From NCBI RefSeq assembly GCF_029948125.1, contig NZ_JASAMB010000007.1, positions 62,001 to 126,000 on the forward strand: a stretch of 64,000 nt of DNA, given 5' to 3'. Under the pieces are notes generated by a model. That model was not told the origin of the DNA, made no database searches, and saw only the letters and a list, made by a program, of their open reading frames with translations. The first letter of the stretch is position 1; every line of letters begins with the position of its first letter. Shown here piece after piece: positions 3,600 through 61,431 of this stretch. Source of the stretch: Catellatospora sp. KI3 (GTDB taxonomy: Bacteria; Actinomycetota; Actinomycetes; Mycobacteriales; Micromonosporaceae). The position numbers were made by a program, and so were the translations under genes.

Positions 3600-3806
3600 G
3601 TATCGCACCTTATTCCCGAGACCGGTTCCCGGACACCCCTGGCAGCCATTTCTTTCCTGTCTGTCCGAGCACATAGGACGGTCCAATAAGCTGACTGATC
3701 AGATGTTGACTGATGCAAACGCCTCTACGTAACTTGGTGCGCCATGCTCTCGGGCCCAATCACGACGGGCGCGCCGGTGCGACGGAGCGCCCAAGGAGGT
3801 AACGAA

Positions 3807-5060
3807 GTGAGACACCCCTCCCCGCGGCGCGCGCTGGTCGCCGCCGCCACGCTGGCGGCCACCCTGCTCCTGCTGGCCGGTCCGGGTGGCGCTGCGACCG
3901 CCAAGCCGAAGGGCGAATGGGTCGGGACCTGGTCCGCGGCCCCGACCGCGGCCGGCGGCGGCCAGTCCGGCGCGGGCTTCAACAACCAGACCATCCGCAT
4001 GATCGTGCACACCTCGGTCGGCGGCGACGCGATCCGGATCCGGCTGTCGAACACCTTCGGCACCGCGCCGCTGACCGTCGGCCACGCCACCCTGGCCCGC
4101 CCCGACGCGGCCACCGCCACGCTCACCGACATCCTGCCGGCCTCGGTGCAGGAGCTGACCTTCAACGGGGACGCCGCGGTGACCGTGCCCAAGGGCGGCC
4201 AGGTGCTCAGCGACCCGCTGACGCTGCCGGTGGCCGAGCTGTCGGACCTGGTGGTGAGCATCTACCTGCCGGTCGCGACCGGCCCTGCCACGTTCCACCT
4301 GACCTCGCGCCAGGCCACCTGGTTCGGTGCCGGCGACACGGCCGCCGAGGCGACCGGCGCGACGCTGACCCTGACCCGCAACTCGTGGTTCTACCTCAGC
4401 GGCGTGGACGTGCTCAGCCGCAAGGCGAGCGGCTCGGTGGTGGTGCTCGGCGACTCGATCACCGACGGCACCGCCTCGACGCTCAACGGCAACGCCCGCT
4501 GGACCGACCGCCTGGCGGCCCGGACGCTCGCGCAGCACTCCTCGCACAGCGAGTGGGGCGTGCTCAACGCGGGGCTGGCCGGCAACACGGTCATCCACGA
4601 CGGCAGTGAGATCGGCTTCCCGGAGCTGGGCCTCAACGGCCTGGCCCGGCTGCAGCGCGACGTGCTGAGCCAGACCGGCGTGCAGACCGCGGTGGTGGTG
4701 CTGGGCATCAACGACCTGCAGATCCACAACGAGACCCCGGACCGCATCCTGGACGGGCTGCGCCAGCTGACGACCCAGATCGACGAGGCCGGGATCGACG
4801 TCGTGGTCTGCACCATCACCCCGTTCGAGGGCTTCTCGTCGTGGACGGCGGAGAAGGAGGCGAACCGGCAGACCGTCAACGCGTGGCTGCGGGCGCACGA
4901 GGGCGACTTCGCCGGACTGATCGACTTCGACCAGCTGCTGCGTGATCCGGCTGCCCCGACCAAGCTGCGGTCCGAGTGGGACAGTGGTGACCACATCCAC
5001 CCCAACGACACCGGTTACCAGGCAATGGCCGACTTCGTACCGCTGTGGTTGCTTTCCTGA
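3807..5060 (+). CDS. Secreted SGNH/GDSL-family hydrolase
   Basis: The product is 417 residues. It opens with a Sec signal peptide (RHPSPRRALVAAATLAATL, then a cleavage region near GGAATA). The SGNH blocks follow: VVVLGDSITDGTAS (block I, catalytic Ser), LNAGLAGNTV (block II Gly), VVVLGINDL (block III Asn) and SGDHIHPNDTGY (block V Asp-x-x-His). This order fits a secreted esterase or lipase, perhaps a polysaccharide deacetylase. GTG 3807 is chosen because AAGGAGGT lies six bases upstream; the in-frame ATG at 3744 has none. It lies upstream of the small-peptide locus but has its own ribosome site. Confidence 0.9.
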   Translation: MRHPSPRRALVAAATLAATLLLLAGPGGAATAKPKGEWVGTWSAAPTAAGGGQSGAGFNNQTIRMIVHTSVGGDAIRIRLSNTFGTAPLTVGHATLARPDAATATLTDILPASVQELTFNGDAAVTVPKGGQVLSDPLTLPVAELSDLVVSIYLPVATGPATFHLTSRQATWFGAGDTAAEATGATLTLTRNSWFYLSGVDVLSRKASGSVVVLGDSITDGTASTLNGNARWTDRLAARTLAQHSSHSEWGVLNAGLAGNTVIHDGSEIGFPELGLNGLARLQRDVLSQTGVQTAVVVLGINDLQIHNETPDRILDGLRQLTTQIDEAGIDVVVCTITPFEGFSSWTAEKEANRQTVNAWLRAHEGDFAGLIDFDQLLRDPAAPTKLRSEWDSGDHIHPNDTGYQAMADFVPLWLLS

Positions 5061-5090: not shown

Positions 5091-5123
5091 TTGACACCTG
5101 CCATAGCCGCACGTGAGGCTATG
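5091..5123 (+). promoter_or_regulatory. Promoter and 7-bp dyad before the small-peptide gene
   Basis: A perfect -35 hexamer TTGACA lies at 5091-5096. Downstream is an inverted repeat, CATAGCC (5102-5108) and GGCTATG (5117-5123), whose right arm covers the expected -10 region. This would suit a repressor operator. The -10 itself is not clear. The leader to the ATG at 5156 would be short. Confidence 0.5.
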
Positions 5124-5155
5124 CCTACGGTCCCACCTGATGGAAGGAGTTCGTC

Positions 5156-5233
5156 ATGGAGGTTGCGCAGCGCGAGGTCGCCCGTGAGGTCGCCCGTGAG
5201 ATCGAGGCTGCTCGCGAGGTTGCTGCTCTCTGA
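5156..5233 (+). CDS. 25-residue EVAR-repeat peptide, possible ATP-grasp substrate
   Basis: A small frame reads ATG to TGA for 25 residues: Met, then EVAQ-R, EVAR, EVAR, EIEAAR, EVAAL. A strong Shine-Dalgarno (GGAAGGAG) lies six bases before the ATG. The stretch before the start is nearly the same as before the ATP-grasp gene (both carry GGAGTTCGTC). The peptide is Ala-, Glu-, Val- and Arg-only apart from Met, Gln, Ile and Leu, has no Cys, Ser or Thr, and should form an amphipathic helix. A perfect TTGACA lies upstream and a large hairpin downstream. Possible roles are a ribosomal peptide modified or extended by the ligase, a carrier peptide, or a regulatory leader peptide. I know no matching family. 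Confidence 0.55.
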   Translation: MEVAQREVAREVAREIEAAREVAAL

Positions 5234-5260
5234 GCTGGGAGTGCGGCCCTAGGGCCTGTT

Positions 5261-5299
5261 CGGTGAGCCCCGTCGCGGATTCCGCGGCGGGGCTCACCG
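5261..5299 (+). terminator. Strong hairpin between peptide and ATP-grasp genes
   Basis: A 12-bp perfect stem (CGGTGAGCCCCG with CGGGGCTCACCG) continues into an inner stem CGCGG/CCGCG with a three-base loop. There is no U-tract, which is common in actinobacteria. Placed between two same-strand genes, it would either attenuate the ligase or protect the 3' end of the peptide mRNA, giving more peptide than enzyme. Confidence 0.7.
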
Positions 5300-5335
5300 C
5301 TATTCGGGGTTCTATCGAATAAGAGGAGTTCGTCT

Positions 5336-6565
5336 ATGTCGGCCGACGACCGCCCGCTGCTGCTCGTACTCGGCAGCGGCAAGCAGGAGTTCCGGGAGTA
5401 CCTGCTGCGCTCGCTCGCGAGCCGCTACCGGGTGCACCTGTTCGTCACCGGCAGCGCCTCCTGGGAGCACGCGTACGTCACCGGCGTGACCGGGTTCGCG
5501 TCCATGTTCGACCTGGCGCCGATGGTCGAGGCGGCCCGCGCGCTCGCCGCCCGCGAGCCGATCGCGGGCGTGCTGACCTGGGACGAGGCGCGCACCCCGC
5601 AGACCGCCGCACTGGCCCGCGAACTCGGCCTGGTCGGCGACCCGGCCGCGATCGGCCGCTGCCGCGACAAGCACCAGACCCGGCTGGCGCTGGACGCCGC
5701 AGGCGTGGCGCAGCCGCGTTCGCGGCGGGTGGCGAGCCTGGCCGAGGCGGAGCAGGTCGCGGAGCGGTTCGGGTACCCGGTGATCCTCAAGCCCAGCGAC
5801 CTGGCCCTCAGCGCCGGCGTGATCAAGGTGGAGCGGCCCGGGGACCTGCCCGCGGGATGGGCGTTCACCAGTGGCCAGCGCTATATCGGGCGGCCCGAGT
5901 GGCGGCCGGTGGTGCTGCTGGAGGAGTACGCCGACGGCGAGGAGATCAGCGTCGACGCGGTGGTGTACCGGGGCGAGCTGACGCCGCTGTGCGTGGGGCG
6001 CAAGGAGATCGGGCATCCGCCGTACTGCATCGAGGTGGGGCACTTCGTGCACGGCGACGACCCGCTGCTGCGGGACCCGGAGATCGTGGACCTGCTGCGC
6101 GGGGCGCACGCGGCGCTGGGCTTCACCGACGGGGTGACCCATACCGAGATCAAGCTGTCGTCGCGCGGGGCGCGGATCATCGAGGTCAACGGGCGGCTGG
6201 GCGGCGGGATGATCCCGTACCTGGGGCTGCGCGCGACCGGGGTCGACGTCGCGCTGGCCGCGGCGGCCGCGGCGACCGGCCGGGCGCCGGACGTCGTGCC
6301 CGACCGGAAGCTGGTCGCGGCGGTGCGCTTCTTCTACCCCGAGCACGACGACACCCGCATCGACTCGATCGGGTTCGACCCCGCCGGGCTGCCGCCCGCC
6401 GTCGACCTGACCGCGCTGCTGGCCGTGCCCGGTGACGTGCGCTCGGCGCCGCCCGGGGGCACGGTGAACGGCCGTATCGCCTACGCCACCGCGGTCGCGC
6501 AGACCGCGCAGGAGTGCCGCGACGCCCTGGACGCCGCCGCGGCCGCGCTGCGGGTCAACCGCTGA
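5336..6565 (+). CDS. ATP-grasp carboxylate-amine ligase
   Basis: A 409-residue ATP-grasp enzyme. It has an N-terminal Rossmann-like lobe (LLLVLGSGKQEFREYLL, residues 8-24). The ATP lobe includes VILKPSD (Lys about 152) and LLEEYADGEEISVD (adenine-binding Glu about 197). Metal ligands are HTEIKL (Glu about 271) and IIEVNGRLGGG (Glu 283, Asn 285). Such enzymes join a carboxylate, through an acyl phosphate, to an amine or other nucleophile; L-amino-acid ligases and peptide-extending ligases look like this. The ATG follows AGAGGAG at seven bases. The upstream peptide gene is the obvious candidate partner. The substrate cannot be read from the sequence. Confidence 0.88.
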   Translation: MSADDRPLLLVLGSGKQEFREYLLRSLASRYRVHLFVTGSASWEHAYVTGVTGFASMFDLAPMVEAARALAAREPIAGVLTWDEARTPQTAALARELGLVGDPAAIGRCRDKHQTRLALDAAGVAQPRSRRVASLAEAEQVAERFGYPVILKPSDLALSAGVIKVERPGDLPAGWAFTSGQRYIGRPEWRPVVLLEEYADGEEISVDAVVYRGELTPLCVGRKEIGHPPYCIEVGHFVHGDDPLLRDPEIVDLLRGAHAALGFTDGVTHTEIKLSSRGARIIEVNGRLGGGMIPYLGLRATGVDVALAAAAAATGRAPDVVPDRKLVAAVRFFYPEHDDTRIDSIGFDPAGLPPAVDLTALLAVPGDVRSAPPGGTVNGRIAYATAVAQTAQECRDALDAAAAALRVNR

Positions 6566-6570
6566 CGGGG

Positions 6571-6622
6571 TTGGGAAGGGGCCCTTCCACCACGTAGAGC
6601 GATAGGAAGGGGCCCTTCCTTG
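6571..6622. repeat. GC palindrome pair, family A copy 1
   Basis: Two GGAAGGGGCCCTTCC-type palindromes are separated by a spacer containing ACCACGTA and GCGATA. It lies exactly between the convergent ATP-grasp and sulfotransferase genes and probably serves as a bidirectional terminator. Further copies are at 14954, 16835, 45931, 48775, 48913 and 61380. Confidence 0.85.
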
Positions 6623-6628
6623 CCGGGG

Positions 6629-7492
6629 TCACCAGTCGTAGCCGAGGCGTTCGACGAGGTCGCCGTAGCGGGCGCGGAAGGCCGCCAGGTGGGTGTCGTC
6701 GAAGTGGTTGCGCCAGTCGCCGGCCACGCCCCGGCGGTAGTGGCTGTGCACGTCCTCCTGGCCGCGCTCGCGCCCCTTGGCCAGCCGGGCGAAGGAGAAG
6801 CGCGCGTTGGTGTCGGCCACGTAGGCGCCGGGCAGCCGGTCGATCGGGAGGCGGGGCAGGACCATGCGGGGGTACGCCATCAGCCTGGGCGTGCGGCGCC
6901 GGGCGGCGAGGTTCCACCGGACGGCCGCCATGCGCGCCTTCTCCTCGCCGGAGCCGTCCGGGGTGAGCAGGTCCAGGTGGCTGAGGATGGTGGTCCACAC
7001 CTTCACCGGGTCGGTGGTGAGATCCTCCATCTTCGTCTCCAGCACCCCGGGGCGGTCGTAGGTCCAGCCCGCCATGGGCTCCAGGAACATCCGGCTGAAC
7101 TCGAGCTCGGCGAGCATGCCCTCCTTCTCGTCGAGCCGGCGCAGGTTGCGCCGGTGCTCGACCAGCTCCGGCCAGGGGATGCCGCCGACCACCTCGGGGT
7201 GGCTGTTGAGGTGGCTGAAGTAGCCGGACACGACGATGTCGCGCGGGTCGCGGATCAGGTGGAACGCCCGCATCTCGGGCAGGCTGTCGATCCACTCCGG
7301 CATGGAGTTGGTCAGGATCAGGATGCCCGGCTTGGTGGCGCGTACGAAGTCGCCGAGGCTGGGGTAGGGCGCCCACTGCTCCGGCACGTGGATCGTGACG
7401 ATGTCGAGGTTCAGCGCGTACGCCACCTCGTGCAGGATCGTCCGCGCCCACGTGGACGCGGACTTGTGGCGTCCGAAGTACGCACGCAGCAA
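6629..7492 (-). CDS. PAPS-dependent sulfotransferase-like protein
   Basis: The 287-residue product matches the Sulfotransfer_1 fold. The 5'-phosphosulfate loop is FGRHKSASTWART near the N terminus. The 3'-phosphate site is HLIRDPRDIVVSGYFSHL at about residues 82-99. The C-terminal YRRGVAGDWRNHF corresponds to the family's RKGxxGDWKNHF loop. It would move sulfate from PAPS to a hydroxyl or amine of a small molecule, sugar or peptide. The start is probably TTG at 7492, since no ATG or GTG is in frame between it and an upstream TAA. It converges on the ATP-grasp gene; a shared pathway is possible but not shown. Confidence 0.85.
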   Translation of the reverse strand: MLRAYFGRHKSASTWARTILHEVAYALNLDIVTIHVPEQWAPYPSLGDFVRATKPGILILTNSMPEWIDSLPEMRAFHLIRDPRDIVVSGYFSHLNSHPEVVGGIPWPELVEHRRNLRRLDEKEGMLAELEFSRMFLEPMAGWTYDRPGVLETKMEDLTTDPVKVWTTILSHLDLLTPDGSGEEKARMAAVRWNLAARRRTPRLMAYPRMVLPRLPIDRLPGAYVADTNARFSFARLAKGRERGQEDVHSHYRRGVAGDWRNHFDDTHLAAFRARYGDLVERLGYDW

Positions 7493-7532
7493 GGCAGGCT
7501 CCGCTCAGGCTGTGAACAGATGAATCGTCCTA

Positions 7533-7556
7533 CGCAGGGTCGCCTGAACCTGCGTT
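7533..7556. promoter_or_regulatory. 7-bp dyad upstream of the sulfotransferase
   Basis: ACGCAGG (7533-7539) and CCTGCGT (7550-7556) form a perfect inverted repeat about 45 bases upstream of the sulfotransferase start, in a locally AT-rich leader. It is a candidate operator; no regulator is identified. Confidence 0.4.
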
Positions 7557-7612: not shown

Positions 7613-8134
7613 TTACTCCGGGGCGGGCAGACCGGCCGCGTCCAGCACCTTCTTGCGTTCTTTCGCGGTCAAACGGTCCACATAGACCGTTCCGTCGAGA
7701 TGGTCGCATTCGTGCTGGAGGCAGCGGGCGATCAGCCCGACGCCCTCGAGGCGGACCGGCTCCCCGTGCATGTCGACGCCGGTCACCACCGCCCAGGCGG
7801 TCCGGGCCAGCTCGGCGCTCTGGCCCGGCACCGACAGGCAGCCCTCGGCCTTGACCAGCAGGTCGCGCGGCGGGGGCGGCAGCTCCAGCACCGGGTTGAC
7901 CACGTGGGCGACCACGTTCGGTCCGCCCTCGGTGTCGGGGCAGTCCATGACGAAGACGCGGGCGTCGACCCCGATCTGGTTGGCGGCCAGGCCCACGCCG
8001 TTGGCGGCGTACATGCTGGCGAACATGTCGGCGACCAGGGCGCGCAGCTCGGCGCCGAACTCGGTCACCGGGGCGGTGGCCTGGTGCAGCACCGGGGTGC
8101 CGTACCTGGTGATGGCGCGGGCGGTGCCGGTCAC
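7613..8134 (-). CDS. def: Peptide deformylase
   Basis: The 173-residue enzyme removes the formyl group from new N-terminal methionines. All three family motifs are present: GVGLAANQIG (motif 1), EGCLSVPG (motif 2, metal-binding Cys) and HECDHLDG (motif 3, HExxH-type metal site). GTG 8134 overlaps the stop of the preceding DUF3105 gene in a GTGA junction, so translation is probably coupled. Actinomycetes often carry more than one def gene; this copy is not next to fmt, so it may be a secondary one. Confidence 0.95.
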   Translation of the reverse strand: MTGTARAITRYGTPVLHQATAPVTEFGAELRALVADMFASMYAANGVGLAANQIGVDARVFVMDCPDTEGGPNVVAHVVNPVLELPPPPRDLLVKAEGCLSVPGQSAELARTAWAVVTGVDMHGEPVRLEGVGLIARCLQHECDHLDGTVYVDRLTAKERKKVLDAAGLPAPE

Positions 8135-14953: not shown

Positions 14954-15006
14954 GAAGGAAGGGACCCTTCTTATCGCTTTACGTGGTGGAAGGGCCCCTT
15001 CTTAAC
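14954..15006. repeat. GC palindrome pair, family A copy 2
   Basis: AAGGAAGGGACCCTTCTTA and GGAAGGGGCCCTTCTTAA-type arms flank TCGCTTTACGTGG. It lies between the convergent flavoprotein gene and the decayed DUF4253 gene. Confidence 0.85.
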
Positions 15007-16834: not shown

Positions 16835-16886
16835 GAAGAAGGGCCCCTTCTGCATCGCATTGCGATAAGAAGGGACCCTTCCTCAC
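16835..16886. repeat. GC palindrome pair, family A copy 3
   Basis: GAAGAAGGGCCCCTTCT and CGATAAGAAGGGACCCTTCC arms lie between the convergent DUF397 and glycoside hydrolase genes, filling nearly the whole gap. Confidence 0.85.
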
Positions 16887-45930: not shown

Positions 45931-45976
45931 CAGGGGCCCTTCCGGTACGCCGCGCGGAAAGAAGGGCCCCTTCCTC
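45931..45976. repeat. GC palindrome pair, family A copy 4 (diverged)
   Basis: CAGGGGCCCTTCC and GAAGGGCCCCTTCC arms flank a spacer unlike the other copies. It lies directly after egtD and probably ends the egt message before the next same-strand gene. Confidence 0.75.
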
Positions 45977-48774: not shown

Positions 48775-48826
48775 TAAGGAAGGGTCCCTTCTTATCGCAA
48801 TGTGTAGTAGAAGGGCCCTTTCTTAA
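48775..48826. repeat. GC palindrome pair, family A copy 5
   Basis: TAAGGAAGGGTCCCTTCTTA and AGAAGGGCCCTTTCTTAA arms flank TCGCAATGTGTAGT. It lies 3' of the phosphotransferase-like gene and forms an inverted pair with copy 6. Confidence 0.85.
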
Positions 48827-48912: not shown

Positions 48913-48966
48913 TTAAGAAGGGGCCCTTCTACTACGGAAAGCGATAAGAAGGGGCCCTTCCTTACC
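48913..48966. repeat. GC palindrome pair, family A copy 6 (inverted to copy 5)
   Basis: TTAAGAAGGGGCCCTTCT and GATAAGAAGGGGCCCTTCC arms flank ACTACGGAAAGC. Read on the other strand it closely matches copy 5, with 86 bases of ordinary sequence between them. It lies 3' of the DUF6232 gene. Confidence 0.85.
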
Positions 48967-61379: not shown

Positions 61380-61431
61380 TTGGGAAGGGGCCCTTCTTCT
61401 GCGCAAAACGATAAGAAGGGGCCCTTCCTTC
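61380..61431. repeat. GC palindrome pair, family A copy 7
   Basis: GGGAAGGGGCCCTTCTT and CGATAAGAAGGGGCCCTTCC arms flank CTGCGCAAAA. It lies directly 3' of the SH3 gene. Confidence 0.85.

Follow-up and report, generated by a model that had tools for sequence, protein, structure and literature searches.

The locus described here raises the question of whether a very short, repetitive peptide is made on the ribosome as a substrate for the ATP-grasp enzyme encoded next to it. The locus lies in a stretch of 64,000 nucleotides from Catellatospora sp. KI3 (contig NZ_JASAMB010000007.1, positions 62,001 to 126,000), which is called the window here and belongs to a genome of 8.2 Mb (G000). An earlier note on the window had pointed to a small open reading frame (ORF) with its own TTGACA box and Shine-Dalgarno sequence, followed by an ATP-grasp gene and a convergent sulfotransferase gene, and all of these were located as described. 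The peptide gene (5156-5233, forward strand) encodes the 25-residue EVAR-repeat peptide MEVAQREVAREVAREIEAAREVAAL, the ATP-grasp gene follows on the same strand (5336-6565), and the sulfotransferase gene (6629-7492) faces it on the reverse strand. The reading favoured in this study, held with somewhat more confidence than doubt, is that of a system resembling ribosomally synthesized and post-translationally modified peptides (RiPPs), in which a multi-unit precursor peptide would be modified by an amide-forming ATP-grasp.

A short peptide gene under selection

The peptide gene is real, as its orthologues and the codon-position bias of the repeats in them indicate. When a 286-nt stretch of DNA spanning the peptide gene was searched for in 61 genomes (its own and 60 related ones), near-full-length matches were found only in the genome of origin and in two other Catellatospora, C. 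tritici (G005) and G009, and 16 further genomes gave merely short matches of 23-56 bases. The orthologous ORFs encode MEVAQREVAREVAREVAREVAAL (23 residues) and, in G009, MEVAQREVAREVAREVAREVAREVAREVAR (30 residues), so that the number of EVAR units differs in frame. The 31 pairwise nucleotide differences between the six EVAR units of G009 are distributed 0/0/31 over codon positions 1/2/3, and the three units of C. tritici differ at third codon positions in 6 of 6 cases. Because all 31 differences in G009 are at third positions, the peptide itself is judged from sequence comparison to be under selection, if less strictly in the window. The differing aligned codons between genomes comprise 1 synonymous and 1 nonsynonymous change for the window and C. 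tritici, 6 and 3 for the window and G009, and 5 and 1 for C. tritici and G009. The earlier note had asked for signs of protein-level selection, and the third-position-only variation between EVAR units speaks for such selection.

The signals around the gene are also conserved in part. The Shine-Dalgarno sequence AAGGAG (5144-5149, forward strand), the TTGACA box and the block GCACGTGAGGCTATG are unchanged across the three EVAR genomes. TTGACA (5091-5096) is part of a promoter-like element (5091-5120, forward strand) in which an 18-nt spacer leads to GAGGCT (5115-5120), a poor match to a -10 box. The peptide and ATP-grasp genes are separated by an 18-bp perfect hairpin (5261-5299, forward strand; dG -40.3 kcal/mol) that begins 27 nt past the peptide stop codon and is terminator-like except that it has no T-run. 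Both arms of its stem change in the relatives with pairing kept, and the 250-nt leader as a whole folds somewhat better than shuffles (z -2.42). The sequence upstream of the peptide gene had been taken for a near copy of that upstream of the ATP-grasp gene. This likeness is found only in the window. The two relatives have a different sequence around the ribosome-binding site of the ATP-grasp gene, and the likeness thus seems to be a chance agreement in Shine-Dalgarno context.

The 409-residue ATP-grasp ligase matches Pfam family PF13535 (2.7e-15), and in a profile search of the PDB its best match was 3vot (BL00235; 2.4e-34), followed by BacD. The AlphaFold model (predicted local distance difference test 94.5, predicted template modelling score 0.92) gave 3vot, 3vmm and 3wnz as its top Foldseek matches; identity over the fold alignment is 15-20% for the L-amino acid ligases and about 20% for 3vot and BacD, the best matches. 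Family hit and model thus both place the enzyme with the L-amino acid ligases, and it is predicted to have their fold. In enzymes with this fold a carboxylate is activated by phosphorylation and coupled to an amine. Across 24 homologues there is no change at K112, K152, E196, E271, E283, N285 or R287.

Repeat peptides in one clade of ATP-grasps

Homologues of the ATP-grasp were collected from 354 genomes of the family, 59 of which had matches at E <=1e-60. This gave 50 loci. A second set of 40 included 38 that were drawn from the order (397 genomes) and the class (394 genomes), and two other families, with 327 and 200 genomes searched, contributed 17 further loci (L200-L216). The family searches took in 53 of 71 ATP-grasp places outside the genome of origin and the order and class searches 42 of 69, the remainder being mostly lower-scoring. 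At most 4-9 candidates were scored per genome, and weaker paralogues may be missed; genome look-ups came to 1,839 in total, with repeat-searched genomes counted twice. A maximum-likelihood tree was built from 90 rows, with L200-L216 outside it and L191 and L192 excluded for translations of <200 residues from the projected start. These two loci were likewise left out of the internal-repeat, peptide-similarity and hairpin counts below.

Four of the homologues, with 50-52% identity to the window enzyme and from another genus of Micromonosporaceae, are preceded by same-strand repeat peptides at a comparable spacing, with repeats of the FEVDPSGALTK-, FEVNPGTFDVN- and REVEPQVKDLGF-types. Genomes G177 and G178, of one genus, hold two repeat-peptide-linked ATP-grasp loci each. 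The peptides are MARFEVDPSGALTKFSEVDPSGALTKFSEVDPSGALTKFSEVSPGRTLSL and, farther upstream, MARREVTPGSFELNFEVNPGTFDVNFEVSGSVALNFEVEPQAAL at L094; MTRREVDPSTSDAKFEVEVREVAFEVEVREVAL at L100; MREVEPQIKDLGFREVEPQVKDLGFEMEPQLKDAPLPEAR and, farther upstream, MREVEPQIKDQVAQLRFEAEPQIKDAPLPEAR at L108; and MRIEIEPQVKDAGFRIEDEPQIKFESEPQVKEAAAA at L109. All seven repeat-peptide-linked ATP-grasps, together with that of L090, lie in one 18-row clade of the tree (support 100/97). Its branch A consists of L090, L094, L100, L108 and L109, and its branch B of L088, L092 and 11 Catellatospora, with the three EVAR species grouped in a clade of their own. Measured from the aligned ATP-grasp start, the nearest branch-A peptides begin between -182 and -242, and the EVAR genes of the three genomes between -175 and -196. 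Two branch-A loci have a second peptide cassette farther upstream with its own hairpin, and these second copies start at -626 and -717. L090 has an 11-residue ORF, MDYEEIAADKA, in a similar layout; it is a tentative precursor only, to which sequence comparison lent no support.

The peptides are 23-50 residues long. A scan with motifs taken from them, covering Shine-Dalgarno-preceded ORFs on both strands of 92 loci, returned these nine peptides and two other, opposite-strand ORFs. An internal-repeat ranking against shuffles was made for the 539 Shine-Dalgarno-preceded ORFs of 15-60 residues in 1,015,747 bases (107 loci, including the 64-kb window). Places 1-7 were taken by ORFs of L094 (two), L129, L108, L128, L100 and L109, every one of them an upstream repeat peptide, place 8 was another frame of the L129 repeat, and the second L108 peptide came 10th. 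The window peptide, in which the repeat is more decayed, ranked 15th. A perfect stem of at least 11 bp beginning no more than 35 nt after the stop codon was found at all 9 repeat-peptide genes, compared with 24 of 522 other Shine-Dalgarno-preceded ORFs. L108 and L109 have a T-run behind the hairpin and the window has none, so its hairpin is called here a putative terminator.

Across loci the branch-A peptides are mostly alike (z 5.7 to 14.3, the best pair being L108/L109 at z 14), and the L094 peptide at -242 is similar to that of L100 alone (z 6.7). The repeat units of L108 differ at codon positions 1/2/3 in 1/0/3 cases. No unit of the nine repeat peptides is without Glu, which is partly by construction since the units were delimited by eye around it. 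The earlier remark that the peptide has no Cys, Ser or Thr holds for the EVAR peptides and does not extend to branch A, where the L094, L100 and L109 peptides have Ser and those of L094 and L100 have Thr. The window peptide had no Pfam or NCBIfam match at 0.001, and the Pfam and NCBIfam scans of six of the ten peptides at E <=10 each produced a single match, both to one peptide and both far below the cut-off. Repeat peptides so short and so repetitive could easily be missed by gene finders, and a repeat ORF with a hairpin about 200 nt upstream of an ATP-grasp of this clade offers a rule for searching.

A proposed precursor peptide and its alternatives

What is found in the window is part of what is looked for in a RiPP precursor, namely a short gene under protein-level selection beside a possible modifying enzyme. 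The core of the earlier proposal, a ribosomal peptide and an ATP-grasp outside the known precursor families, has support from the orthologues, the third-position-only variation, the recurrence in one clade and the ORF and hairpin layout. In a RiPP-like system the short gene would yield a precursor in which units with a Glu follow one another in tandem (type [FRS]E[VI], which in Catellatospora is EVAR), in excess over a scarcer enzyme, as the layout of promoter, tiny ORF, hairpin and enzyme suggests: the promoter would drive the peptide gene and the hairpin would pass just part of transcription into the ATP-grasp gene. The L-amino-acid-ligase-type ATP-grasp would then form an amide bond on the peptide, either at the side chain of the recurring Glu or at the N-terminus of protease-released units, because Glu recurs and because this type of enzyme activates carboxylates and uses amines. 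As bond partner a small acid or amine is envisaged, whose synthesis or activation in the sister clusters would fall to AMP-binding enzymes; a flavin mononucleotide (FMN)-dependent dehydrogenase and an aminotransferase may also contribute to its supply at L094 and L100. In Catellatospora the adjacent sulfotransferase would sulfate the added part, since EVAR has no hydroxyl. A more specific proposal, put forward tentatively, is a new Micromonosporaceae RiPP class in which the L-amino-acid-ligase-type ATP-grasp would decorate each unit of a hypervariable tandem-repeat peptide via the recurring Glu. A single ribosomal strand would then offer many sites, as substrate or as carrier, to small molecules activated or sulfated by the products of neighbouring genes.

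Several results weigh against the RiPP-like reading. Eight of the 11 Catellatospora, and L088, have the ATP-grasp and the sulfotransferase without an upstream repeat peptide (at L092 the contig begins there and the peptide region is cut off), and the enzymes of L088, L131 and L134 look intact too, because the invariant residues are kept in all three. These peptide-less Catellatospora are the main argument against the peptide as the only substrate. The expectation of a small ORF upstream of orthologous ATP-grasps thus holds for three Catellatospora and fails for the other eight. Since these eight and L088 lack the repeat peptide, its distribution would fit either one gain followed by losses or separate gains. 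The promoter-like element is not peptide-specific, since TTGACA-17-GAGGCT also stands 5' of the ATP-grasp in 4 of the 8 Catellatospora that lack a repeat peptide. No repeat peptide was found outside the 18-row clade, in the remaining 74 of 92 loci and the 17 further loci, and the set is small, with seven repeat-peptide loci in five genomes plus the tentative one. A search of 11 Catellatospora genomes with an EVAR nucleotide pattern brought up no further short EVAR gene, and unlinked copies of two branch-A peptides were not found in 16 genomes. No protease, exporter or leader-binding domain was identified in the ten sister-locus and four window proteins scanned.

The similarity between the peptides is also weak in part. 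Certain branch-A pairs reach only z 4.0-4.2, no better than unrelated ORFs (up to 5.8), the window peptide scores 35 against that of L100 (z 2.9) where an unrelated ORF reaches 3.6, and branch-A peptides are absent from the five best similarity matches of the other two EVAR peptides. Because the similarity is at best weak (z 2.9), sequence comparison gives no support to a shared ancestry of the EVAR peptides with those of branch A. The weaker peptide-to-peptide similarity and the promoter-like element that is not specific to the peptide are the reasons why the RiPP-like reading is held no more firmly than stated at the outset. In these searches, matches of the EVAR pattern elsewhere in G004 and in the genome of origin lay inside longer open frames and were not short EVAR genes, and two matches to a branch-A peptide on C1 of G177 (E 0.05 and 0.08) were discarded as a low-complexity open frame.

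The best placed of the alternatives, though still an unlikely one, is that the peptide is an independent small protein which just happens to adjoin an ATP-grasp and a sulfotransferase that make a small molecule alone; it might, for example, form a salt-bridged helix or act as a secreted or signalling peptide. The occurrence of the enzyme pair without a repeat peptide in 8 of 11 Catellatospora agrees with this, and (EVAR)n would suit a Glu-Arg salt-bridged helix. However, recurrence directly upstream of the ATP-grasp, confined to one clade of enzymes and yet spanning two genera with differing flanking genes, is difficult to reconcile with mere adjacency.

It is improbable that the ORF is a regulatory leader whose translation controls hairpin termination into the ATP-grasp gene, with a functionless peptide as its outcome. 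An attenuator would likewise consist of promoter, short ORF, hairpin and gene, and pairing of the ORF with the 5' arm of the hairpin was at or near the 5% tail of the shuffles in 2 of 10 ORFs (0.03 for the second copy of L094 and 0.06 for L128). However, when ORF and 5'-arm pairing alone is considered, only 1 of the 10 ORFs falls below 5% and the other 9 are no better than shuffles. In addition, no single amino acid dominates the peptides, the units of the EVAR relatives vary at third positions only, and at two loci a second upstream peptide cassette carries its own hairpin.

LysW-type amino-group carriers are small acidic proteins modified on Glu by an ATP-grasp ligase, and the repeat peptide might be a multi-site carrier of this kind, with the amine of a small amino acid linked to the repeat Glu side chains, the product being tailored on the peptide by activation and sulfation and then cut off. 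The Glu in each unit of the nine peptides would suit this (allowing for units drawn around it), as would the fact that EVAR offers no Ser, Thr, Lys or Cys and the linkage to a sulfotransferase despite an EVAR peptide without a hydroxyl. Nevertheless, a releasing peptidase was not identified beside the genes, RimK and LysX structures were absent from the 50 Foldseek hits shown and weak by sequence profile, and the peptides differ from such carriers in their ligase type, in their tandem repeats and in lacking the C-terminal motif of those carriers. This makes a LysW-like carrier a rather remote prospect. Finally, a chance ORF or non-coding repeat is hardly credible, since the frequency of short low-complexity ORFs in G+C-rich DNA and the 15th place of the window peptide are set against the 0/0/31 bias, the in-frame length changes, the conserved Shine-Dalgarno sequence and the recurrence.

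Neighbouring genes and known systems

Eleven neighbour proteins were used as queries against the fetched flanks of 109 loci. The contrasts from this search are somewhat inflated, as the queries come from these loci and 17 of the 109 flanks (L200-L216) are only about 1.5 kb, with 139 bases upstream for L202, no upstream sequence for L092 and one short side for L093, L104, L113, L156, L158 and L166. Homologues of the window sulfotransferase (PF00685), convergent and with 54-90% identity to it, were found in 13 of 109 loci, which are exactly the thirteen branch-B rows, and not in the fetched flanks of the other 96. The sulfotransferase proposed as a partner therefore accompanies the ATP-grasp in 13 of 13 branch-B rows, with the peptide present in just three of them. 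For an AMP-binding enzyme the count was 5 of 109 loci, and these are the five of branch A and no others, with the family assigned for four of them; the FMN-dependent dehydrogenase, the aminotransferase and an alpha/beta hydrolase are common to L094 and L100. Upstream of the peptide gene, a GDSL esterase/lipase gene (3744-5060, forward strand; Pfam) was found with the window query in 8 of 13 branch-B loci and not in the other 5, and it is probably a neighbour rather than a cluster member.

At L088 (G369) a large open frame, subtilase-like by eye, ends just 5' of the ATP-grasp in place of the peptide gene. Outside the clade, an amidinotransferase-like gene (by eye) precedes the ATP-grasps of L113 and L216, with a weak match in L191; its position in L113 and L216 suggests that other members may use guanidino-acid substrates. 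A small protein of 54-56 residues (MNGH/MNGN...LTLLPVRAA...) is conserved about 470-580 nt upstream of the ATP-grasps of L089, L095, L107 and L155; these ORFs are not repetitive, lie outside the clade and were rejected as repeat peptides. In the window, a peptide-deformylase-like frame (by eye; about 7613-8131, reverse strand) adjoins the sulfotransferase gene. A dispersed palindrome, GAAGGGGCCCTTC, gave 25 matches on both strands with at most 1 mismatch, compared with 0.08 expected from shuffles. It is mostly paired, with starts 31 bp apart, and occurs at 6575-6618, 14958-15001, 16838-16881, 45961-45973, 48779-48822, 48917-48960 and 61384-61427.

Among known enzymes, BL00235 and BacD are the closest solved structures by sequence profile, and BL00235, BacD and RizA are among the seven best folds. 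To our knowledge, no L-amino acid ligase acts beside a ribosomal peptide gene. The pheganomycin pathway also pairs an ATP-grasp amide ligase (PGM1) with a short ribosomal peptide (PMC8939145, PMC7794033), and the sister clusters here hold enzymes possibly supplying an unusual acid, as in that pathway. The resemblance would be a loose one, since the gene set differs and the matches of the window enzyme at E <=0.001, six in Pfam and 24 in NCBIfam, include no PGM1 model.

Graspetides such as microviridin also depend on an ATP-grasp enzyme, and some of their precursors carry several core repeats (PMC8939145). Unlike theirs, the ligase here is L-amino-acid-ligase-like, no graspetide maturase model was among its 24 NCBIfam hits and no graspetide model among the hits listed for the peptides, and rimK_fam scored 32.5 bits against a cut-off of 143.4. 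The EVAR peptides also have no Ser, Thr or Lys acceptor and hence no graspetide core pair, although the branch-A peptides have some acceptors. A limited literature search, covering parts of three papers, gave no description of EVAR- or FEV-type repeat peptides (PMC8939145, PMC7794033, PMC13307308). The decRiPPter report describes predicted RiPP clusters with ATP-grasps unlike those of graspetides or pheganomycin (PMC7794033), and these families may overlap with the window system. If the peptide is the substrate of the ligase, this would be another use of ribosomal peptides by ATP-grasp enzymes, beside the cross-linking of graspetides and ligation of the pheganomycin type.

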